DNA from: Terriglobia bacterium
Lineage (GTDB): Bacteria > Acidobacteriota > Terriglobia > Bryobacterales > Bryobacteraceae
DNA: 64,000 nucleotides
Direction: 5' to 3'
NCBI GenBank assembly: GCA_020073305.1
Contig: JAIQFK010000010.1
Coordinates: 62,001 to 126,000, forward strand
In this document: piece by piece, positions 5,866 through 16,007 of the stretch
Position numbering within the stretch: the stretch's first letter is position 1
Layout: each line of letters opens with the position of its first letter
Made by a program: the position numbers and the translations under genes
Notes under the pieces: model-generated
Database searches by the model: none
Told to the model about the DNA's origin: nothing
The model's input: the letters and a program-made list of their open reading frames with translations, nothing else

Positions 5866-6117
5866 ATGGATATTTCCCAAACCGTGGTTGGTCCGGCCAC
5901 TGAATCCGAGCGTATCCTCGCACTGGATGCCCTCCGCGGGCTTGGCGTGCTCGGAATTCTGGTGATGAACGTCGAGTCCTTCGGGCGGGTGGGCGCCGAG
6001 TATGTGAATCCCACCGCGGTCCAGCCGCTGGTAGGCTCCGATTTCTGGATGTGGTTGGTGAGCACGCTTTTCGTGGATGAAAAGTTCCTGGGGATATTCT
6101 CGATGCTCCCATCGTAG
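5866..6117 (+). pseudogene. N-terminal fragment of a DUF418 (YeiB-like) membrane protein
   Basis: Eighty-three codons that match only the beginning of DUF418 family proteins: a lead RILALDALRGLGVLGILVMN, then a loop with a conserved Pro, then WLVSTLFVDEKFLGIFSML, after which the family continues FGAG and several more membrane helices up to about 400 residues. Here a stop codon comes three residues after FSML and no continuation is found in the next 75 bases or in other frames. The break sits exactly where a secreted hydrolase gene has its promoter, so a recombination or insertion junction is likely. It is probably not functional. Confidence 0.75.
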
Positions 6118-6192
6118 CGTTTCACCATGGTTCGGCGCAGCCTGATCTGCCTCCCGTTTTCTCTCTCCTCCCCCTGCGATACAATCCCTCCC

Positions 6193-8184
6193 ATGCTGAA
6201 ACGCACCTGCCTCCTCGCCCTCTCTCTCTCTGCCCTTGCCCACGCCGCGCTCCTGCGCATCGAGCTCTCCGAGCGCTCCGACGTCCTCGCCGGAAAACCG
6301 TTCGGCTCCGCCGGCTCCTATGAGCGCCTCATCGGCAAAGCGTATTTCGCCGTCGATCCCTCGAACGCCGCGAACCGCATCATCGCGGATATCGACAAGG
6401 CCCCGCGCAATGAAGCCGGGCTCGTCGAGTTCTCCGCCGACCTCTACGTGCTCAAGCCTCGGGACCCCGAACACGGCAATCACGCCGTGCTGTTCGAGGT
6501 ATCGAATCGCGGCGGCAAAGGCATGCTGAGCTTCTACGACCGTGCCGCCGGATCTTCCGACCCGCGCGCGCCCGAACAGTTCGGCGACGATTTTCTCCTC
6601 GAACGCGGATTCACGCTGGTCTGGCTCGGCTGGCAGTTCGACGTTCCGCAGCGCGAAGGATTGATGCGGCTCTACGCCCCGGTGGCTCGTGATGCCGGCC
6701 GGCCCATCACCGGCCTGGTGCGCTCCGAGCTGGTCCTCGATCGCCGGCAAACCAGCTACTCGCTCGCCGATCGCGATCACATCCCGTACCCGGCATTGAA
6801 TCCCGATGATCCGAAGCTCACGCTGACCGTTCGCGACTGGCGCGACGCGCCCCGGCGCACCGTGCCGCGCGCGGACTGGCGCATCGAAGACCGCACACGC
6901 CTTGTGATGCCCGCGGGATTCGAGCCCGGCAAGATCTATGAAGTCGTCTACACGGCCCAAGATCCCGTGGTGGTGGGACTCGGCGCAACGGCCATCCGCG
7001 ACCTGATCTCCTTCCTGAAATACGGCGGCGCCGAGACCCTGCTCGGCGACCAGAGCGATCACATCAAGCGCGCCTACGGCTTTGGTATTTCGCAGAGCGG
7101 CCGCTTCCTGCGCACCTTCCTCCACGACGGATTCAATCGCGACGAAAAGGGCCGCCGCGTCTTCGACGGCGTTCTCTGCCACGTCTCCGGCGCGGCGCTC
7201 GGCAGCTTCAACTTCCGCTTCGCCCAGCCCTCGCGCGATGCCCATCCTTTCTACAACACGTTTTATCCGACCGATATTTTTCCCTTCACCGATATCGAAC
7301 AGGCCGATCCCGAAACGGGCCTGACCGACGGCCTGCTCACACGCGCCATGAAGGATCACGTCGTTCCCAAGATCTTCTATTCCGATACCTCTTATGAATA
7401 CTGGGGCCGTTCGGCGTCGCTGATCCACACCACCATCGATGGCCAGAAGGACGCGCCTCTGCCCGATACCACGCGCATGTATTTCCTCACCGGCGGGCAA
7501 CACGGCCCGGCGCCGTTCCCTCCGCCGAAAAATCACACGCGGAATCTCACCGATCCGAACGATTTCCGCGGGGCCATGCGCGCGCTGCTGGTGGCCATGG
7601 ACCGCTGGGTGCGCGACGGCGTCGAGCCGCCTCCATCGCTTTACCCGCGCATTGCGCAGGACACGCTCGTGCCCCTGGGCGCCGTGCAGTTTCCCAAGAT
7701 TCCCGGCGTGAGTTTGCCCACTCACATTCAGAAAGCCTACCGGGTGGATTACGGACCGGAATTTCGGACACACGGCGTCATCAGCGTGGAGCCGCCGAAA
7801 GTCGGCAATGCATTTCCGATGCTCTTGCCGCAGGTCGATCGGGACGGCAACGAAACCTCAGGTCTGCGCATGCCGGAGATCCAGGTGCCTCTTGCCACGT
7901 ACACGGGATGGAACCTGCGCTCGCCGGACATCGGCGCGCCCGACGAGATGTTCAGCATGGCGGGCTCGTTCATCCCCTTTGCCCGCACCAGAGCGGAGCG
8001 CGAGTTGCGCCACGACCCGCGCCCGTCCATCGAAGAACGCTACTCCGGGCGCGCGCAGTACCTCGAAAAAATCGAGGCCTCCGCCCGCCGCCTGGTCGCC
8101 GGCGGCTATCTGCTCGAGGCCGACGTGCCGGGCGTCATCGAGCACAGTGCTACGGAGTGGGATTATTTGAACGGCGCGCCGTAG
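6193..8184 (+). CDS. secreted alpha/beta hydrolase domain protein (large, Abhydrolase_10 type)
   Basis: A 663-residue protein with a cleavable Sec signal peptide (residues 1-19, ending ALAHA). It matches the large 'alpha/beta hydrolase domain-containing' family frequent in Acidobacteria and Proteobacteria, as I recall PF20091. The nucleophile elbow is FGISQSGRFLR, preceded by a long beta-rich N-terminal region (residues 20-270), with a probable catalytic His in the TGGQHGPAP region. Substrates of the family are unknown; extracellular esters are a guess. I chose the ATG at 6193 over an upstream in-frame ATG at 6127 because it creates the signal peptide. TACAAT ends 7 bases before it, with no Shine-Dalgarno. 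A 676-codon antisense frame over this gene is a codon-bias artefact. Confidence 0.88.
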   Translation: MLKRTCLLALSLSALAHAALLRIELSERSDVLAGKPFGSAGSYERLIGKAYFAVDPSNAANRIIADIDKAPRNEAGLVEFSADLYVLKPRDPEHGNHAVLFEVSNRGGKGMLSFYDRAAGSSDPRAPEQFGDDFLLERGFTLVWLGWQFDVPQREGLMRLYAPVARDAGRPITGLVRSELVLDRRQTSYSLADRDHIPYPALNPDDPKLTLTVRDWRDAPRRTVPRADWRIEDRTRLVMPAGFEPGKIYEVVYTAQDPVVVGLGATAIRDLISFLKYGGAETLLGDQSDHIKRAYGFGISQSGRFLRTFLHDGFNRDEKGRRVFDGVLCHVSGAALGSFNFRFAQPSRDAHPFYNTFYPTDIFPFTDIEQADPETGLTDGLLTRAMKDHVVPKIFYSDTSYEYWGRSASLIHTTIDGQKDAPLPDTTRMYFLTGGQHGPAPFPPPKNHTRNLTDPNDFRGAMRALLVAMDRWVRDGVEPPPSLYPRIAQDTLVPLGAVQFPKIPGVSLPTHIQKAYRVDYGPEFRTHGVISVEPPKVGNAFPMLLPQVDRDGNETSGLRMPEIQVPLATYTGWNLRSPDIGAPDEMFSMAGSFIPFARTRAERELRHDPRPSIEERYSGRAQYLEKIEASARRLVAGGYLLEADVPGVIEHSATEWDYLNGAP

Positions 8185-8221
8185 TCGTAGTTCATTAGCA
8201 TGAGGCAGCCACTCCCTTCGA

Positions 8222-10627
8222 TCACGGTTCAGTTTCGTGAGGCTTTGCTGAGCCGCGACCAGAGGGAGCGGTCCTGGCGTTCTGGCCGCGACGGGCCATT
8301 ATGCTTCGCTCGATCAGCTCCAGAAATTCCGCTTCGCGATCGATTGCCGTGCGAATCTTCAGCCAGTAGAGAGGCAGAGGCGTCATCAGCCCGGCGTTCC
8401 CCTCGCCCAGATTGATCGCATCCTTCTCGGTAGTGACCGCGGCCTCCGCTTTCGCGGCGAGGAACTGTTGGGCCATCCGGCGTACCTCCTGCGCGCGGTA
8501 CATGTGATGGTCGTTGAAAACCACGCGCTGCGCTGTCTCCATGCCCATCATCTCCAGCGAGCACCAGAACGATTCCGGATTTCCCAGCCCGCAAAACGCG
8601 CCCACCCGGGACACGGTCAATTCCGGGAGTTGCCTTCCGCTGGCGGCTTCCACCCAATACTCCGGGACCGCCCGTGCGTAGAAGATCGGGGCCCGCGCAT
8701 TGTAGCGGCGCAACGCGCACTGGAGATCGAACGTTCCGCGGCTGCACTCGCTTCGCGTGATCACGATGATCTCGGCTCGTGACAGGGCTTCGAGCGGCTC
8801 GCGAAGCCATCCCAGCGGAAACACCTCACCCCCGCCGAACGGCCTCAGCGCATCGATCAGCAGGATGTCCGCCTGCCGCGAGAGACGCACGTGCTGGAAC
8901 CCATCGTCCAGGATCAGTACATCGGCCCCGAAGCGCTCTTGAAGCATCCGCCCGGTCTCGAAACGGTCTGAACCAATGCCTAAAGGCGCGATGCCCGCCC
9001 GCAGGAACATCTGGGGCTCGTCGCCCGACTGCGAAACCGGCACGCGCGCGCCCGGCTCAAGGATCAGATGCCTTTCGAGCGAGTGCCGCCCGTAGCCGCG
9101 GCTGAGAATGCCCGGCCGGTGGCCCGCGCGCTGCATCTCCTCAGCCAGGTACAAAACCAGCGGCGTTTTCCCCGTCCCACCCATCGTGAGATTGCCCACG
9201 CTCACCACGGCGGCATCCAGCTTTCTCCGCCGCCCCATGTCGCGCCGCCGCTTAAACGCTCCCACCCAGCGCCACACACAGGAAAGGGGCCAATAGAACC
9301 AGAATTCGGCGAAGTTCGGGCGAAAACGCGGGCAGGCCTCCGCCGTGGCTTCGCGAATCGCCGCCAGCGCCCGTTCCGTGGCCCCGCGATTGGACTCCGC
9401 GCACTCGAGCGCCCGGCGCCCCAGTTCGGTCGCACGGCTCCGGTCCTTGAGCAGCCCATCGACTGCGCCCGCCAGTTGCGAAGCCGTCGCTACCTCCACA
9501 AATGCTCCTGCCGCGCGAAATTGTTGGGCAATTTCCCGGAAATTCTCCATATGTGGGCCACATATAACGGGCCGCGCAAAGAAGGCCGGCTCCAGAATGT
9601 TATGCCCGCCCCGTTCAGCCAGCGTTCCCCCCATGAAAACGGCATCCGCCAGCGGGAACAGGCTGCTCAGCTCACCCATGGAATCGAGTAGGAGTACGGC
9701 GGGCAACTGCAAGGAGCCGTGCAGGTTGCTCCGCCGAACGAACTTAACGCCCGCCCGCTCGAGCTTACCGGCAACGGCGTCAAACCGTTCTGGCTTGCGT
9801 GGGGCGATGAGCAGCAACAAGCGCGCATGTTGTTGAGCCAGCTCGTGAAACACCCCAATCACGGTATCTTCTTCGTCAATATCAGTGCTGGCAGCAATCC
9901 AGACCTCCGCGGGACGCAAACCTTCAACAAACTGGTGTACGGGCGCCTGCCGGTCTGCCGGCTGCGGCACAAAGTCATATTTCAGGTTGCCGCCCACGCG
10001 AACCCTTTGAGCCGGCGCACCCAGCGACAGATAACGCTCCCGCATGGTCTCGCTTTGTACCAAAATGGCGTCGGGCCAGCGCAGTACCTGGCGGAAAAAC
10101 CAGCGCTGCAGTTGATAACGGCGCCAGGTGCGCTCGGAAATGCGGCCGTTAACGATAATGAGGCCGCATCCGGCCCTTTTCGCCTCTCGGAACAGGTTCG
10201 GCCAGATTTCGGTTTCAGCCACGATCACCAGGGCGGGCTGCAGCGTTCGCAATACGCGGCGGACGGCGAAAACATGGTCGAGGGGAGCGAAGAAGACCCC
10301 GGTTGCCAAGCCGGAAAGCTTCTCGCGGGCTGTGGCGCGCCCGGCCAGCGTCGCCGTAGAGACAAACAGCGGGGCCCGGGGGAACTCGGCGCGCAGCCTC
10401 CGCGCCAGTTCGATCGTCGAAAGGACTTCACCCACCGAAACCGCATGCAACCAGATAGCTCCGGGAACAGTCTGGTTAAAGGAACGCGACAAGAACCCAA
10501 GTCTCTGCCAAATTGAAGGAAAATAAGCCAGATTACGCACCGAGCGAAAGAAAAAGTAAGCCAGGACCGCTGGCAGTGCTAATGCCTGGAGAAAGCGGTA
10601 AAGTATATAAATGCCTTTTGTTTTCAA
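8222..10627 (-). CDS. fused Kdo transferase (WaaA) and tetraacyldisaccharide 4'-kinase (LpxK)
   Basis: One uninterrupted frame encodes two lipid A enzymes. Residues 1 to about 430 are WaaA/KdtA, which adds Kdo to lipid IVA from CMP-Kdo: an N-terminal membrane helix, the motif IWLHAVSVGEV with the catalytic Glu, and GNLKYDF and GGTLAERGGHN of the GT-B second lobe. Residues about 440-780 are LpxK, the ATP-dependent 4'-kinase: Walker A VGNLTMGGTGKTP, LSRGYGR, and DDGFQH. The order is the reverse of the pathway (LpxK acts before WaaA). No stop, start or frameshift separates the halves. The start is uncertain: TTG at 10627 (chosen, placing the WaaA N-terminus correctly), with another TTG at 10675; both overlap the divergent gene at 10611. 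Confidence 0.93.
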   Translation of the reverse strand: MKTKGIYILYRFLQALALPAVLAYFFFRSVRNLAYFPSIWQRLGFLSRSFNQTVPGAIWLHAVSVGEVLSTIELARRLRAEFPRAPLFVSTATLAGRATAREKLSGLATGVFFAPLDHVFAVRRVLRTLQPALVIVAETEIWPNLFREAKRAGCGLIIVNGRISERTWRRYQLQRWFFRQVLRWPDAILVQSETMRERYLSLGAPAQRVRVGGNLKYDFVPQPADRQAPVHQFVEGLRPAEVWIAASTDIDEEDTVIGVFHELAQQHARLLLLIAPRKPERFDAVAGKLERAGVKFVRRSNLHGSLQLPAVLLLDSMGELSSLFPLADAVFMGGTLAERGGHNILEPAFFARPVICGPHMENFREIAQQFRAAGAFVEVATASQLAGAVDGLLKDRSRATELGRRALECAESNRGATERALAAIREATAEACPRFRPNFAEFWFYWPLSCVWRWVGAFKRRRDMGRRRKLDAAVVSVGNLTMGGTGKTPLVLYLAEEMQRAGHRPGILSRGYGRHSLERHLILEPGARVPVSQSGDEPQMFLRAGIAPLGIGSDRFETGRMLQERFGADVLILDDGFQHVRLSRQADILLIDALRPFGGGEVFPLGWLREPLEALSRAEIIVITRSECSRGTFDLQCALRRYNARAPIFYARAVPEYWVEAASGRQLPELTVSRVGAFCGLGNPESFWCSLEMMGMETAQRVVFNDHHMYRAQEVRRMAQQFLAAKAEAAVTTEKDAINLGEGNAGLMTPLPLYWLKIRTAIDREAEFLELIERSIMARRGQNARTAPSGRGSAKPHETEP

Positions 10628-11243
10628 ACGCTTGGCTCTTCTGATGAGTATAGCGGCCCTGGCCGGGCTGGACAAGGCGGCACCCCCGGATAAAGACCAG
10701 TCAAAATTCGAATTGGGCCCCGCCGCCAGCTACCCCTCCCATCAGACGAGCGAGAAGGTGACGATCGGGGCTTCGGTTTACGACAGCGCCGAGAAGGCCC
10801 ACGCGGCGTTCGGCAAAGTAAACCCTTATCAATATGGCATTTTGCCCGTCCTGGTGGTCATCCAGAATGATAGCGGCCAAACCATGCGCGTGGACCGCAT
10901 GCGCGTGGACTATGTCAGCCCCGGCGGCGGCCATGTGGACGCCACACCGGCAGCGGATGTGCGTTTCCTGAATCCCGCGCGGCAGCCGAACGTAGTCACG
11001 GGGCCCCTGCCGACCAAGGGGCCGCACATTTCGCGCAAAAAGAACCCGCTCGACGCCTGGGAGATCGACGGACGCGCGTTTGCGGCCAAAATGATCCCAC
11101 CCGGGCAATCCGCGGGCGGGTTCTTCTATTTCCAAACAGGCAACCGGCCCGGTGCGCGGCTGTACGTGACGGGCCTGGAGGAGGCCTCCTCGGGCCGCGA
11201 ACTCCTCTATTTCGAGTTTCCCCTCAAGGACGAACCCCGGTAA
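10611..11243 (+). CDS. exported protein of unknown function
   Basis: A 210-residue protein that begins with a short hydrophobic signal-like stretch (FKRLALLMSIAALAG, residues 6-20), suggesting export. The rest is beta-rich and soluble: a segment GASVYDSAEKAHAAFG and a central block LPVLVVIQNDSGQTMRVDRMRV that looks like an immunoglobulin-like strand pair, then a Gly/Pro-rich middle and a C-terminal strand LLYFEFPL. I do not recognise a named family; similar proteins occur singly in Acidobacteria. Codon use favours this strand over the antisense frame. Its first 17 bases overlap the 5' end of the divergent waaA-lpxK gene, so the two promoters must lie inside each other's coding sequence. Confidence 0.7.
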   Translation: MPFVFKRLALLMSIAALAGLDKAAPPDKDQSKFELGPAASYPSHQTSEKVTIGASVYDSAEKAHAAFGKVNPYQYGILPVLVVIQNDSGQTMRVDRMRVDYVSPGGGHVDATPAADVRFLNPARQPNVVTGPLPTKGPHISRKKNPLDAWEIDGRAFAAKMIPPGQSAGGFFYFQTGNRPGARLYVTGLEEASSGRELLYFEFPLKDEPR

Positions 11244-11534
11244 CCGGGATGGAAATCCGCGGCTTGACCTTCGGCAATATATGCTTATTTCCCTTCTAAA
11301 TGCTAACCGAAATTAGTGAAAATCAATGCCCGCTGTTACTGCCTACTGCCATTCGTTATCGCCGCAGCCCGGGCTCTAACCTTTGACAACCGGGGCCCGT
11401 ATCCCGTTGGAAATTAAACTATAATTAACAGAATCTTTTTAACGTTTTTCTAAAAAAATCACTAGAAAAAGTCTTTAATTGAGAGAGTTTTCCTTTATAA
11501 TGAAAACCGCGCCAAGGAAGGGCGCGAATGGCAA
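11244..11534 (+). promoter_or_regulatory. AT-rich leader with candidate promoter for the zinc-finger gene
   Basis: This 291-base gap is much richer in A/T than its surroundings. A perfect TATAAT lies at 11496-11501, with CTTTAA 17 bases upstream as a weak -35, and AAGGAAGG at 11514-11521 can serve as Shine-Dalgarno for the GTG at 11535. Another TATAAT at 11420-11425 has a TTGACA at 11383-11388, but 31 bases away, too far for one promoter. No coding potential is seen. Confidence 0.5.
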
Positions 11535-14186
11535 GTGCGCTGTCAATTTTGTGGCAAAAATCTCTGGCCGCTGCGAGGACTCTTCGACGAGGACTTCTGC
11601 AGCAAGGATCACCGCCAGCGCTATCACGAGCGCGTGCGCAAGGCTCTAGAGCACCTGCCCAAAGGACAGGCAGGTCCCAAAGCCTCCGGAATCGCCGGCT
11701 TCCAGTTTGAGAAGCCTCGCGTGCAGGAAGCGCCGCAGGCGAAGGTCTTGTCGACTGAGCTGTGGCAAAGCCCGTCCGGTCCGGCCGTGCCAAATTTCGC
11801 GCACACGACGGAAGGGCCCTCGTTTGGAACCAGCTCGTTCTCCTTCGCGTCCGTGAGTCCGGCCACTGGAGCGGCGCCGCGCATGGCAGAAGCCAGCGCG
11901 ACCGCGATTGCTCCCAACGTGATGAGCATTGCGAGCCTGCGCCAGCGGGTTCATGAGAGCCAGGGAATCGTTGCCACGTTGGTGGAAGCGCCGGCGGCCA
12001 TCGCGCCGCGTCCGGGCAACATGGCTCTGAGAGTTTCCGAGCGCTGGACGCCGAGTCCCGAAGTATTCGACGAGCTGAATCACGTTTACCTGCATGAACC
12101 GGATCCTGTGCTCATGGCCAGTTTCCCGCTCGCGGGAAGCCTGACCGCAGGGCTGCACGCAGTGCCGGTGGGCGCGAAGGCCAGGCACACCGCCAGCGCG
12201 GGCCCCTCAGGCGCGGGCCGTGTGGAATTCTTCCCGATGCAGCCGCGGTTGAGCGGCGTCCTACCCAACGCCGACCGAGCCGGGGACCTTCTCGTGGAGA
12301 TGGCTTCCGCAGAGGGCGAGAACATCTGGCTCGAAGACTTGATGAGCTGGCGTATCCCGGTTGCGCTGGCACCGAACCGCTCCTCGATGGCAATGCTTCC
12401 GGCTACGGACCGCATGGCCGCGCTCGAGCTGGTTCGCAATGTGCAGCTCAATTCGGCGGCGAGCCCCGCGCCTCTTGAGTGGCGATTCAAAACCGCCGAT
12501 CTGGCGCAGCGCCGCGAGTTCGAAACCGCGCGTCCGGCCGTCGCACCTGCGATGGTGATCGAATTTCCGGCTCCGCGTGACGGAGCGTCGGCGCCGTTGA
12601 GCACGGAAGTCGCCCTTTTCGACGCGTCCTCGTTCCAACTGCTGGTCCCGGACATCTCCGTCGATTCTGGCGATCTGGATCTGCTGCTGGCGACCGAGCT
12701 CGCCGACATAATCCCGGAGGAGACGGACGCACAGAGCGAGGAAGGCGAAACGCTGGCGCCGCGTGCCACGGAGTGGTTGCCGATCGAAGCGCAGGCGGTG
12801 CTTCCGGTCTCGTCGCCCGAGATGGTGGGCGCGCTGGCTGAAGCGAAGATCGGCGCGGACCTGGTGGCCCAATCTCTCCCATCGCAACTGCGAAACGGGG
12901 CGATGAGCTTGAATCCGGGGCTGCCCATCAGCCTCCCGTATTGCGCCGTACGCCTCAAGAACGGGCCGGACTTCTTCGCCGCCGAACCGGTGATTGCCGA
13001 TTCCGCGGCACGGCCGGTTGCCGCCAGACCGTATGCGGCTCCGGTGGCGCTCTCGGTTCCCGAGGTGCTTTGCAGCACATCCGATACGCTGCTCCACGCG
13101 ACGGCCTTGCAGGTGGTACAGCCGGCGGGCGCGTTCCGGGACGAGGAAGTACTCAGCCACGCCGCGGAACCCATGGCGAACGTCAGCATGGCGATGCCGG
13201 TGGTGGAACCCCAGCCTGCGGGCTTCGGTTCGGGCGAACTCACGAAGATCGATCTGTGGTTCCGCGACACCGGCGATCGTTCGCCGCATCAGGTCGCTTG
13301 GATGGAGCCGCAACTGGCGCTTGCGATTCCGGATTCACACTACGAAGACTATCCGCTGGCTCTGCAGGTGGATGTCCCCGAGCCGCGCACGGTCACCGTA
13401 TTTGAGACCGCGGCTACCTACGAGCAGCAGGCGCCCAAAGTGCTGGCGATCAACGAAGCTAAATCGAAGCGCTTTGCGGTGCCGAGTTACGTGAAGGGCA
13501 TGGCGGCGGGCTTGATGCTGGCCTCGTTCCTGTGGTTCGGCAGCTCGAGCATCAAGACGGACGGCATCACGCTGCGGCCTGGAGATCTGATCCGGCTGAC
13601 GATCCAGCGTCGCGCGGTGGTTGAAGTCGGCGACAACTTCCATGCCGGTCTGGCAGCCTGGGATGGCAAGAACTTCGCCAAAACCTGGGTCTACGACAAG
13701 GATGGTTTCATGCGCCCGGGGCGCCTGGCGCTCTATAAGCCGTCGCACGACATGACGGACTACAAGATGGAATTCCTGACGCAGATCGAGCGCAAGAGCG
13801 TGGGTTGGGTTTTCCGCGCCGCCGATGATCAGAACTACTATGCCATGAAGCTGGCGGTGACCGAACCGGGTCCGCGGCCGCTGGTGGCGCTGGTTCGTTA
13901 TTCCGTCATTGATGGCAAGAAGGAATCGCGCGGCGAGACGCCGGTGCAGGTGATGATGCACAACAACCGCCCGTATCGCGTCGAAGTCGATGTGAAAGGC
14001 AACCAGTTCCTGACCTCGATCGAAGGACAGCTGGTGGATTCGTGGAGCGACGACCGTCTGAAGTCCGGTGGCGTCGGCTTCTTCGCGGAGGGAAGCGAAA
14101 AGGCGCGGCTGTACTGGATGAAGATCACGAAGAACAGTGATTTTCTGGGCAGGCTGTGCTCGATGCTGGTTCCCAAGGAGTCGTAA
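11535..14186 (+). CDS. zinc-finger / single-TM / lectin-like (DUF1080-type) membrane protein
   Basis: An 883-residue protein with an unusual plan. Residues 1-31 hold a compact C-x2-C-x15-C-x3-H finger (C3, C6, C22, H26) like small treble-clef ribbons. Residues 40-640 are a long Ala/Pro/Glu-rich, low-complexity region without recognisable folds. A transmembrane helix follows at about 656-672 (MAAGLMLASFLWFG), then a C-terminal domain (about 690-875) resembling the concanavalin-like DUF1080/3-keto-disaccharide hydrolase fold (GWVFRAADDQNYYAMKL, SGGVGFFAEG). With the finger in the cytoplasm, the lectin-like domain would be periplasmic. The GTG at 11535 is the only sensible start in frame. It is followed 60 bases later by a TPR gene, probably in the same operon. 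The function is unknown. Confidence 0.8.
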   Translation: MRCQFCGKNLWPLRGLFDEDFCSKDHRQRYHERVRKALEHLPKGQAGPKASGIAGFQFEKPRVQEAPQAKVLSTELWQSPSGPAVPNFAHTTEGPSFGTSSFSFASVSPATGAAPRMAEASATAIAPNVMSIASLRQRVHESQGIVATLVEAPAAIAPRPGNMALRVSERWTPSPEVFDELNHVYLHEPDPVLMASFPLAGSLTAGLHAVPVGAKARHTASAGPSGAGRVEFFPMQPRLSGVLPNADRAGDLLVEMASAEGENIWLEDLMSWRIPVALAPNRSSMAMLPATDRMAALELVRNVQLNSAASPAPLEWRFKTADLAQRREFETARPAVAPAMVIEFPAPRDGASAPLSTEVALFDASSFQLLVPDISVDSGDLDLLLATELADIIPEETDAQSEEGETLAPRATEWLPIEAQAVLPVSSPEMVGALAEAKIGADLVAQSLPSQLRNGAMSLNPGLPISLPYCAVRLKNGPDFFAAEPVIADSAARPVAARPYAAPVALSVPEVLCSTSDTLLHATALQVVQPAGAFRDEEVLSHAAEPMANVSMAMPVVEPQPAGFGSGELTKIDLWFRDTGDRSPHQVAWMEPQLALAIPDSHYEDYPLALQVDVPEPRTVTVFETAATYEQQAPKVLAINEAKSKRFAVPSYVKGMAAGLMLASFLWFGSSSIKTDGITLRPGDLIRLTIQRRAVVEVGDNFHAGLAAWDGKNFAKTWVYDKDGFMRPGRLALYKPSHDMTDYKMEFLTQIERKSVGWVFRAADDQNYYAMKLAVTEPGPRPLVALVRYSVIDGKKESRGETPVQVMMHNNRPYRVEVDVKGNQFLTSIEGQLVDSWSDDRLKSGGVGFFAEGSEKARLYWMKITKNSDFLGRLCSMLVPKES

Positions 14187-14246
14187 CCGCGAGGCGGGCT
14201 GTAAAGGATTCAGTAGCAAACGGGAGAACAGGAAAGAGAGAGTTCA

Positions 14247-15947
14247 ATGAGCTCAGTGAATCGGAACCCGGTGGACCTCGGGGCTTCACCGCGTTTGGCT
14301 GTGGTCGGTAAGCCGGGATCGGTGAAGCCGATGGGTTCGAAAACCGGAAACGGATCGGCCGAGAATGCAGAAGAAAAAGGCGGCCGCTCTCGATCTTTGG
14401 CCACCGCTGTAGCCCTGCATCTGGAAGGCAAACCCGAAGAGGCCTTGCGCGAGTTGCGGCGGGCCGTGGAGCGTGGCGAGAACAAGCCGGCCATCTTCTC
14501 AGCGATGGGCCACATCCTGTATGAGCTGCAACGCTATCAGGAGGGTGTGGAAGCCTACTCGCAACTGGTGGAATTGGAGCCACACCATCGCAGCGGCTAC
14601 TTTAAGCTGGCGGTATGCCTGGAAAAGCTGGGCCGTTGGGACGAAGCCGCGGCCAACTTCCGCAAGGCGCTGCAGATTGCGCCCGGAAACTCCGAAGCGC
14701 AACTGGGATTGGGCATCTGCCTCCTGCACCTGGAAAACTCCGAGCAAGCGCTGGAAGCCTTCGATCAGCACCTAAGCCAGCAACCCGAGCAGCCGGAAGT
14801 GCTGTTCGGCAAGGCTGTGGCACTGCAGCAGGCGGGGCGCCTGGACGAAGCGTCGGCCCTCTATCACCGGCTGTTGGAACGTAATCCGCATTCCGAAGAG
14901 TCTCTGGCCAACATGGTGGCCCTGGAGATTGCGCGCAAAGATTACGATGCGGTGCGCGATTACTCCGAGAAGCTGCTGTCGCTCCGGCCCCATTCTCAGG
15001 CGGCATTGGCCGGTCTGGCCACCTCAGCGTTCGCTGCCGCGGATTTCGAGGCGGCTTCGAAGTTTTGCGCCAAGCTGGTGGACCTGGTTCCCGACAGTTT
15101 CGAAAACTGGTTCAACCTGGGGGTTGCGTACCAGAAGATCGGGAATTACCAGGAAGCCACGCAAGCCTATACGCGCGCAACCGAACTCAGGCCGGATTCC
15201 GCGCAGTCTCATCTGAATCTGGGGGTGACGTTCCAGGAGACCGGCGCGCTCGACCGGGCCCGCGAGGCGTACGAAAAGGCTCTGAAGCTGGACGACCATC
15301 TTCCGGCGGTGCTCTGGAACCTGGCACTGGTGCTCGAGCAGCAGGGCAACTACGAGCAGGCCGAGCAGCTCTATTCGCGTATTCCGGATAAAGATCCCGA
15401 GTGGGATGACGCACAGTTCCGCATGGGCTACCTGCGGCTGCAGCGCGGCGATTATGCGGGCAGCATCCAGGCCTTCGAGGGCTGCCTGAAGAAGCGCAAG
15501 GACTGGCCGGAAGCCCGGCTCAACGCGGGCATCGCGTACTGGAAGATGGACGATTCCAAATCCGCGCGCAAGGCGTTCGAAGACGTCCTGGGGCTGCGGC
15601 CGGATTCGGTGGACGCGCTTCGCGGCCTGGCGGCTCTTTCACTGGCGCAGCAGGATTACAACCAGGCGTTCTCCCTCCACAAGAAGCTTCTGGATCTGGG
15701 TGAGCGCAGCGCCGAACTGTACTACAACGCCGGCCTGATCGCCCAGAAACGCAGCGAGATGCAGGATGCCGCGAAGTACTACGAGCAGGCCCTGCAGCAG
15801 CAGCCGCAGTTCGCCGAAGCGCTGCTGAACCTTGGCCACGTGCGCAAAGCACTCGGCCAGGAGGAAGAAGCCCGGAACTGCTGGCGCAAGGCTGTAGAAG
15901 CCAAGCCCGAGCTGGCCGAAACCTACTTCGAGCCGGCCGCGCAATAA
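14247..15947 (+). CDS. cytosolic TPR-repeat protein
   Basis: A 566-residue protein that is essentially one tetratricopeptide superhelix: after a polar 45-residue head, about a dozen 34-residue repeats run to the C-terminus, with the usual W/L-G-Y-A-F-A-P signature positions (for example ENWFNLGVAYQKIGNYQEA, LNLGVTFQETGALDRA, LLNLGHVRKALGQEEEA). There is no signal peptide or membrane helix, so it should be a cytoplasmic scaffold. It follows the zinc-finger/TM/lectin gene by 60 bases on the same strand, has GGAAAGAGAG as Shine-Dalgarno, and is closed by a strong terminator, so the two genes likely form one unit. The partner proteins are unknown. Confidence 0.9.
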   Translation: MSSVNRNPVDLGASPRLAVVGKPGSVKPMGSKTGNGSAENAEEKGGRSRSLATAVALHLEGKPEEALRELRRAVERGENKPAIFSAMGHILYELQRYQEGVEAYSQLVELEPHHRSGYFKLAVCLEKLGRWDEAAANFRKALQIAPGNSEAQLGLGICLLHLENSEQALEAFDQHLSQQPEQPEVLFGKAVALQQAGRLDEASALYHRLLERNPHSEESLANMVALEIARKDYDAVRDYSEKLLSLRPHSQAALAGLATSAFAAADFEAASKFCAKLVDLVPDSFENWFNLGVAYQKIGNYQEATQAYTRATELRPDSAQSHLNLGVTFQETGALDRAREAYEKALKLDDHLPAVLWNLALVLEQQGNYEQAEQLYSRIPDKDPEWDDAQFRMGYLRLQRGDYAGSIQAFEGCLKKRKDWPEARLNAGIAYWKMDDSKSARKAFEDVLGLRPDSVDALRGLAALSLAQQDYNQAFSLHKKLLDLGERSAELYYNAGLIAQKRSEMQDAAKYYEQALQQQPQFAEALLNLGHVRKALGQEEEARNCWRKAVEAKPELAETYFEPAAQ

Positions 15948-15975: not shown

Positions 15976-16007
15976 GGCCAGGGCCCCGAAGCCCTGGCCT
16001 TTTTTTT
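15976..16007 (+). terminator. strong intrinsic terminator after the TPR gene
   Basis: A perfect 9-bp stem (GGCCAGGGC at 15976-15984 with GCCCTGGCC at 15991-15999) closes a 6-base loop and runs straight into eight T residues (16000-16007). It is the best rho-independent terminator seen in the window and marks the end of the 11.5-16 kb operon. Confidence 0.92.

Follow-up and report, generated by a model that had tools for sequence, protein, structure and literature searches.

A conserved gene pair of Bryobacterales encoding a putative zinc-finger, jelly-roll protein and a TPR protein: a possible membrane-spanning scaffold

What is the role of two adjacent genes, the first of which encodes a protein without a family name and the second a protein built of TPR repeats? 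This question is raised by a locus of a Terriglobia bacterium (Bryobacteraceae), found in a 64,000-nucleotide stretch of DNA (hereafter the window) from a genome of ~7.0 Mb, whose closest relatives with a name are a member of the Bryobacteraceae and a MAG of Acidobacteria group 3; the order is accordingly referred to here as Bryobacterales. The initial annotation had proposed that the pair forms a membrane-spanning sensor or assembly scaffold. The following features of the locus were distinguished:

11390..11534, + strand: upstream non-coding region, part of which is kept in the near relative L034 (alignment)
11535..14186, + strand: ORF1, 883 aa, GTG start; finger, linker, probable membrane helix and jelly roll
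11541..11612, + strand: N-terminal finger C3-x2-C6-x15-C22-x3-H26, FCS/treble-clef-like (sequence, alignment of relatives, moderate model)
11670..13496, + strand: fast-evolving linker rich in A/P/L/S/V, residues about 46-654 (identity comparison with relatives)
13497..13553, + strand: probable single membrane helix, N-inside, residues about 655-673, weak in the window protein (hydropathy, relatives)
13605..14183, + strand: C-terminal jelly roll of CBM66/DUF1080-like fold, predicted periplasmic, residues about 691-883 (model and fold matches)
14247..15947, + strand: ORF2, 566 aa, soluble TPR solenoid
15976..16007, + strand: terminator-like site, a 9-bp stem at 15976-15999 followed by 8 T

Both ORFs were found at the positions originally assigned to them, with a gap of 60 bases between them. 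The GTG at 11535 was accepted as the start of ORF1, because it aligns with the ATG of most members of the family and is also a GTG in L034; an ATG at 11528 was rejected, being out of frame and absent from the same place in L034. The promoter of the pair likely lies in the upstream non-coding region, in which a sigma-70 scan identified no promoter-like site. The stem and T-run described earlier as the terminator closing the pair are indeed present, and the regional count of such sites in the terminator scan was no higher than in shuffled sequences. Upstream, on the opposite strand, the window also contains an 817-aa ORF (8222-10675, -) in which KDO transferase (PF04413) and LpxK (PF02606) domains are found together; two lipid A steps thus appear to be fused.

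The N-terminal C3H finger of ORF1 was confirmed, with ligands C3, C6, C22 and H26 that are kept in the relatives and that may bind zinc. The Pfam matches of the window finger were limited to zf-FLZ and zf-C4_ClpX, both weak. At a cut-off of E ≤ 1, the DUF2116 profile ('probable treble clef') weakly matched 11 of the 38 fingers, with a best E of 1.1e-4, the window member not being among them, and a TniQ finger profile matched weakly (E 0.026). The CxxC ... FCS pattern is common to the ORF1 finger and the FCS-type fingers of DUF2116 and TniQ; in contrast to these, the fourth ligand of ORF1 is a histidine, at CxxxH, and the finger is placed at the very N-terminal end of proteins with a linker. 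Structure prediction of the finger yielded a moderate model (pLDDT 70.3, pTM 0.42), for which Foldseek found no fold match in the PDB at E ≤ 0.001.

Conservation along ORF1 is strikingly uneven. Comparison with two same-genus relatives revealed identities of 87-90% in the finger (29 of 45 residues compared in one of them), 38-52% in the linker, 89-94% in residues 656-690 and 83-84% in the C-terminal domain, a distribution which, at the level of sequence, is consistent with fixed functional ends connected by a free linker. The finger is thus conserved. In a broader alignment (A3) the C3H ligands are invariant by construction, since its members were chosen by the C..C...C...H pattern. A fairer sample is provided by 15 Acidobacteria loci found by the C-domain pattern alone (L074-L088; three Nocardioides loci of the 18 found in this way were excluded), among which 11 carry a C3H finger, including that of L080, read by eye after the profile had missed it. 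Of the other four, L075 and L079 are truncated at a contig end, and two short ones, L085 and L086, lack both a finger and a TPR gene.

The stretch of approximately 600 residues between the finger and the helix had been described as being of low complexity. Its length and its richness in A/P/L/S/V were borne out, but 'low complexity' is a loose term for it, and FoldIndex is positive over the linker, so that disorder is unsupported. A recurring linear motif was also considered for the linker and rejected: the enrichment of class patterns was mild, and in our reading it derives in part from the internal repeats of L096. The latter locus (5885-10027, +) encodes a finger protein of 1380 aa, whose linker appears by eye to be built of similar repeated segments.

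The single membrane helix predicted earlier stood in part. Within the 125 residues preceding the C domain, a segment with a Kyte-Doolittle mean of at least 1.6 was present in 35 of the 43 C-domain genes, and one of at least 1.3 in 41 of them. In linkers alone, used as a control, these values were reached in 6/31 and 15/31 cases, respectively, which makes the 1.3 cut-off unspecific; even at 1.6 the linker background is appreciable. The segment in the window protein is weak (mean 1.34 over 19 residues, with one linker stretch reaching 1.45), and its assignment therefore rests on its position, its conservation within the genus and the segments of the relatives. Lysine and arginine residues around the 41 helix segments were more numerous on the N side in 27 cases, equal in 7 and fewer in 7. 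Based on these features, ORF1 is predicted to be a single-pass, N-inside protein with the jelly roll directed outward. No 15-residue window with a mean of 1.9 or more was found in 44 of 46 TPR proteins, as would be expected of a cytoplasmic partner. Given the N-inside bias and the lack of strongly hydrophobic segments in the TPR proteins, the finger, the linker and the TPR protein probably share the cytoplasm, with the jelly roll facing out.

The C-terminal domain was modelled from 16 sequences (mean pLDDT 86.4, pTM 0.80) as a mostly beta structure. The best structural neighbour of the C domain was CBM66 of Bacillus levanase (4b1m_B; Z 18.2, rmsd 2.6 Å, 151 aligned residues, about 17% identity), followed by a part of galactocerebrosidase (Z about 17). 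Galectins, beta-glucanases and DUF1080 proteins matched at Z about 15-16, among them the DUF1080 structures 3hbk (Z 14.9, rmsd 2.8, 159 aligned) and 3imm (Z 15.1, rmsd 3.2, 157 aligned); Foldseek additionally matched 8v31. The 'periplasmic-type DUF1080-like domain' of the initial annotation is therefore right as a fold, as seen in the model, and its periplasmic side agrees with the predicted topology; as a family or a function, 'DUF1080-like lectin' is unproven. At the sequence level, the window C domain had no Pfam match at E ≤ 1, and its profile matches in the PDB were insignificant (an antibody at 0.012, CBM66 levanase at 0.2). ORF1 has the jelly-roll fold in common with CBM66 and the PF06439/DUF1080 proteins, but its identity to them is about 17% and 12-13%, respectively, and its domain follows a probable membrane helix and a finger on the cytoplasmic side. 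Nocardioides proteins of 1070-1228 aa (L089-L091) carry a domain distantly related to it (25-26% identity); the finger profile found no match in them.

These fold matches bear on the possibility that ORF1 is an enzyme acting on carbohydrates in the periplasm, anchored in the membrane and related in type to 3-keto-disaccharide hydrolases, whose cytoplasmic tail is incidental. The profile of that family (PF06439, formerly DUF1080) matched 3 of 36 relatives at E ≤ 1 (best 1.5e-5), and 3hbk, 3imm and 8v31 are consistent with such an enzyme. However, the top fold match, CBM66, is a binding module, and the C domain is missing from 10 of 40 pairs in which the finger and the TPR gene are kept. We consider an enzymatic role highly unlikely; from its modelled fold, the domain may instead bind glycans.

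As proposed, the second gene encodes a TPR protein: PF07719 matched ORF2 in 11 stretches (E 2.8e-66), and these repeated matches over the cut-off place it in the TPR superfamily. It is 84-88% identical to the TPR proteins of same-genus relatives, and the matches cover nearly its whole length in most relatives. Mapping of conservation on the protein was too noisy for a groove to be named. ORF2 was the sole source of PADLOC matches at the locus (PrimPol 1e-10, TPR 1.6e-7, PDC-M71B 1.4e-5), which were read as repeat similarity, and a defence system was consequently rejected.

The evidence that the two genes belong together comes from their distribution, their linkage and their phylogeny. The ORF1 and TPR (E ≤ 1e-60) families are present in the same 34 of 61 relatives and absent from the same 27, as compared by eye; this count includes G029, which enters by the finger only, and G044, G049 and G053, whose ORF1-family match is a gene that lacks the finger and is not located beside the TPR gene. 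Of the 250 order genomes searched, 167 matched the finger profile and 166 had the TPR gene, with 164 having both, 81 neither and five being discordant (finger only in G064, G146 and G181; TPR only in G011 and G018), searches that scored 28 and 5 candidates per genome and so may have missed some. The corresponding Fisher p value (2.4e-59) ignores phylogeny. In a sample of 396 genomes taken from across the phylum, three carried the finger, all of them belonging to the family of the window.

The two genes also adjoin in most of the relatives examined: the finger and TPR genes are adjacent in at least 70 of the 100 finger places compared. A closer view was obtained from loci chosen for finger or C-domain matches, which contain 65 such genes, or 56 after removal of nine cut by an end. 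A same-strand TPR gene directly follows 40 of the 44 untruncated finger genes of at least 400 aa, none of the nine shorter finger genes and none of the three finger-less C-domain genes. Among the four exceptions, L041 (597 aa) precedes another finger gene, after which the TPR gene is found; the other three are L063, L102 and L103 (410-467 aa). For 33 pairs, the C-domain and TPR trees were correlated (r 0.70, a value not reached in any of 2000 permutations), and the paralogous b-type pairs G006b, G026b, G030b, G034b and G036b cluster with one another in both. The agreement is partial, since G022b and G000b/G001b are placed differently in the C-domain and TPR trees.

Could two unrelated genes without a joint function have stayed together merely because an operon was inherited vertically? 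The finger is confined to one order as far as sampled, which implies few independent events, and both the phylogeny-blind co-occurrence statistic and the partial agreement of the trees are compatible with this explanation. It is nevertheless very improbable in our judgement: G070 (genus g25) and G063 (genus g49) have neither gene, whereas the other listed members of each genus have both (the genomes without the pair being partly listed), the pair has been duplicated as a pair, giving a clade common to both trees, and the linkage is kept across different architectures and genomic places. That ORF1 and the TPR gene form a pair, as first suggested, is thus upheld by adjacency, co-occurrence and correlated gene trees.

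Inspection of the untruncated genes revealed three architectures: (a) finger, linker and jelly roll, usually with a clear helix, accompanied by a TPR gene (n=30); (b) finger and linker without the jelly roll, the TPR gene being kept (n=10); and (c) finger proteins without a TPR gene, mostly short, with or without the helix and jelly roll (n=13). Since the lectin domain is missing from 10 of the 40 TPR-paired finger genes, the finger and the TPR protein are the constant core of the system. The hydrophobic maxima of these ten proteins are at the linker background (2/10 at 1.6 or more, vs 6/31 linkers). In three genomes of a sister family (G044, G049, G053) the parts are separated, a finger gene adjoining the TPR gene and a finger-less gene for a helix and jelly roll being located elsewhere. 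The architecture, the pairing and the DUF1080-like fold agree with the proposed membrane-spanning sensor or assembly scaffold, but a membrane-spanning sensor is not a feature shared by all pairs, given the ten paired genes with neither a lectin domain nor a clear helix, and sensing is a role that we infer.

TPR-less finger proteins of 201-467 aa were also observed in the genome of the window and in two same-genus genomes (L063:6247-7479, L064:5891-6496, L102:3737-5134, L103:5457-6860 and L104:5402-6229). Near the C terminus they carry a motif, recognized by eye, resembling IKxWxLxITF.

The restriction of the TPR gene to long finger proteins is relevant to another explanation, in which ORF2 would serve ORF1 as its own chaperone or assembly factor, maintaining the solubility of a long, sticky linker until insertion or assembly, and would form no lasting scaffold. 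Consistent with this, the gene accompanies 40 of the 44 long finger proteins irrespective of the lectin domain, and none of the nine short ones, and the A/P/L/V-rich linker is not clearly disordered. On the other hand, a protein of 566 aa that is matched over nearly its full length in most relatives seems to exceed what a simple chaperone would require. We regard this role as unlikely, if conceivable.

Two kinds of neighbouring genes were analysed. At all five b-type pairs inspected, a divergently oriented Roadblock/LC7 gene was identified (PF03259, E 2.4e-14 to 4.5e-19):

L070:3872-4291: Roadblock/LC7 gene
L071:8800-9210: Roadblock/LC7 gene
L108:6231-6611: Roadblock/LC7 gene
L109:7256-7702: Roadblock/LC7 gene
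L111:4821-5255: Roadblock/LC7 gene

Close relatives of this gene (E ≤ 3e-43) are present in 8 of the 61 genomes and are divergent to the finger gene in six of these, namely in the five loci inspected and, by coordinates, in G005; that of G028 is not adjacent and that of G011 lies at a contig end. A ninth, weak relative (E 8e-12) occurs in G009, a genome without the pair, and no Roadblock gene was found in the genome of the window. As described in PMC11580455 and PMC3983030, the TPR protein of the SgmX/MglA/MglB and the Bdellovibrio TPR-MglA polarity modules is a polar hub, in or near Roadblock (MglB) systems. A TPR gene and a Roadblock gene are likewise combined at the b-type pairs. Unlike in the MglA systems so described, no Arf/MglA-type GTPase, as searched with PF00025, tracks the pair, the Roadblock gene is found in one paralogous branch, and the TPR gene is tied to a finger gene. 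PF00025 (Arf-type GTPase), the sole GTPase model used, was detected at E ≤ 1e-5 in 23 of the 61 genomes and, by eye, tracks neither the pair nor the Roadblock gene, and four Roadblock-bearing genomes (G005, G011, G026, G034) have no PF00025 match. An MglA-type system was set aside on the basis of this one GTPase model.

The second neighbour is carD. In 15 loci (L036, L044, L046, L048-L051, L054-L057, L072, L082, L083 and L107) it was found within 1-3 called genes of either member of the pair, the genes having been called by a home-made heuristic. In 36 of 37 family genomes a single carD match was found; the two of the 15 loci that were checked in Pfam both matched CarD, and the L044 query had no CarD match in NCBIfam. 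This proximity, together with the DUF2116 matches of some fingers and the ten paired finger genes lacking a lectin domain, could indicate a regulatory module with transcription or nucleic acid as its target, in which the finger, membrane-tethered or free, would bind DNA, RNA or RNA polymerase in answer to a periplasmic signal. However, within the family carD is found whether or not a genome has the pair, and in the genome of the window it is located elsewhere, so its synteny may be passive, and ORF1 has no DNA-binding domain match. A regulatory module is, in our opinion, distinctly improbable. As an obligatory part of the system carD was rejected, also because it was not found at E ≤ 1e-8 in five pair-bearing genomes (G037, G039, G044, G049 and G053).

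The closest known parallel to ORF1 is ZitP of Caulobacter. According to PMC5182065 and PMC5182063, its cytoplasmic zinc finger binds the scaffold PopZ, and its periplasmic DUF3426 recruits the envelope factor CpaM; the finger is a zinc_ribbon_5 with the pattern CxxC-x19-CxxC (PMC5182063). ZitP, as presented there, consists of an N-terminal cytoplasmic zinc finger, a single membrane helix and a periplasmic C-terminal domain, a layout predicted, with a weak helix, for ORF1 as well. The parts differ: ZitP combines a PF13719 finger and a shorter linker with DUF3426, whereas ORF1 has a C-x2-C-x15-C-x3-H finger, a 600-residue linker, a CBM66/DUF1080-like jelly roll and an adjoining TPR gene. DUF3426 had no match at E ≤ 1 in the window protein or in 36 C domains. 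Since both the finger type and DUF3426 fail, ORF1 was not placed in the ZitP family.

In line with the initial remark that the presumed sensor or scaffold has no familiar name, ORF1 found no family match in Pfam, NCBIfam or PADLOC, and its assignment to a named family was accordingly abandoned. In the titles and abstract openings covered by our literature search, no paper on the finger-TPR pair was found. Bitopic zinc-finger scaffolds are known as a kind, while ORF1 and its pairing are new to the databases and literature searched.

Taken together, the match in layout to ZitP leads us to favour a positional or envelope-linked scaffold. Our preferred reading, to which we assign a probability of roughly 0.4, is a lineage-specific bitopic scaffold that would resemble ZitP in its working but stands outside the ZitP family. 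The finger and long linker of ORF1 would lie in the cytoplasm, one helix would cross the inner membrane, and the lectin-like jelly roll would be displayed in the periplasm. The cytoplasmic TPR protein would hold the finger/linker part of ORF1 and serve as a hub, bringing other proteins to a site that either the finger or a glycan in the periplasm would mark; in one paralogous branch, the Roadblock/LC7 protein may be among the recruits. The precedent is ZitP, with a finger that binds a scaffold and a periplasmic part that recruits an envelope factor. Direct contact between the TPR protein and the finger or linker, and positional or envelope signalling, are what we infer from the architecture, the C-domain fold, the pairing, the co-occurrence and the correlated gene trees observed by computation.

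A more far-reaching version, which we put forward as speculative and doubtful, is a spatial-organisation system specific to Bryobacterales and composed of a periplasmic glycan-binding lectin, one helix, a long cytoplasmic tether, an FCS-type finger and a TPR hub; one duplicated branch would have gained a Roadblock regulator. Such a system might serve polarity or envelope positioning with components unlike ZitP/PopZ and would, to the extent searched, have no Arf-type MglA.

Acidobacteria are described as abundant in soil and rarely characterised (F-183 abstract). F-183, a strain in culture, has the finger-TPR pair (L080). A two-gene unit that is present in about two-thirds of the order genomes analysed, and whose first protein has no family match, offers a good entry to the cell biology of this group. 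If the pair is a scaffold, it would represent a ZitP-like design made from different parts and would provide a ready test of a link between envelope glycans and internal organisation.
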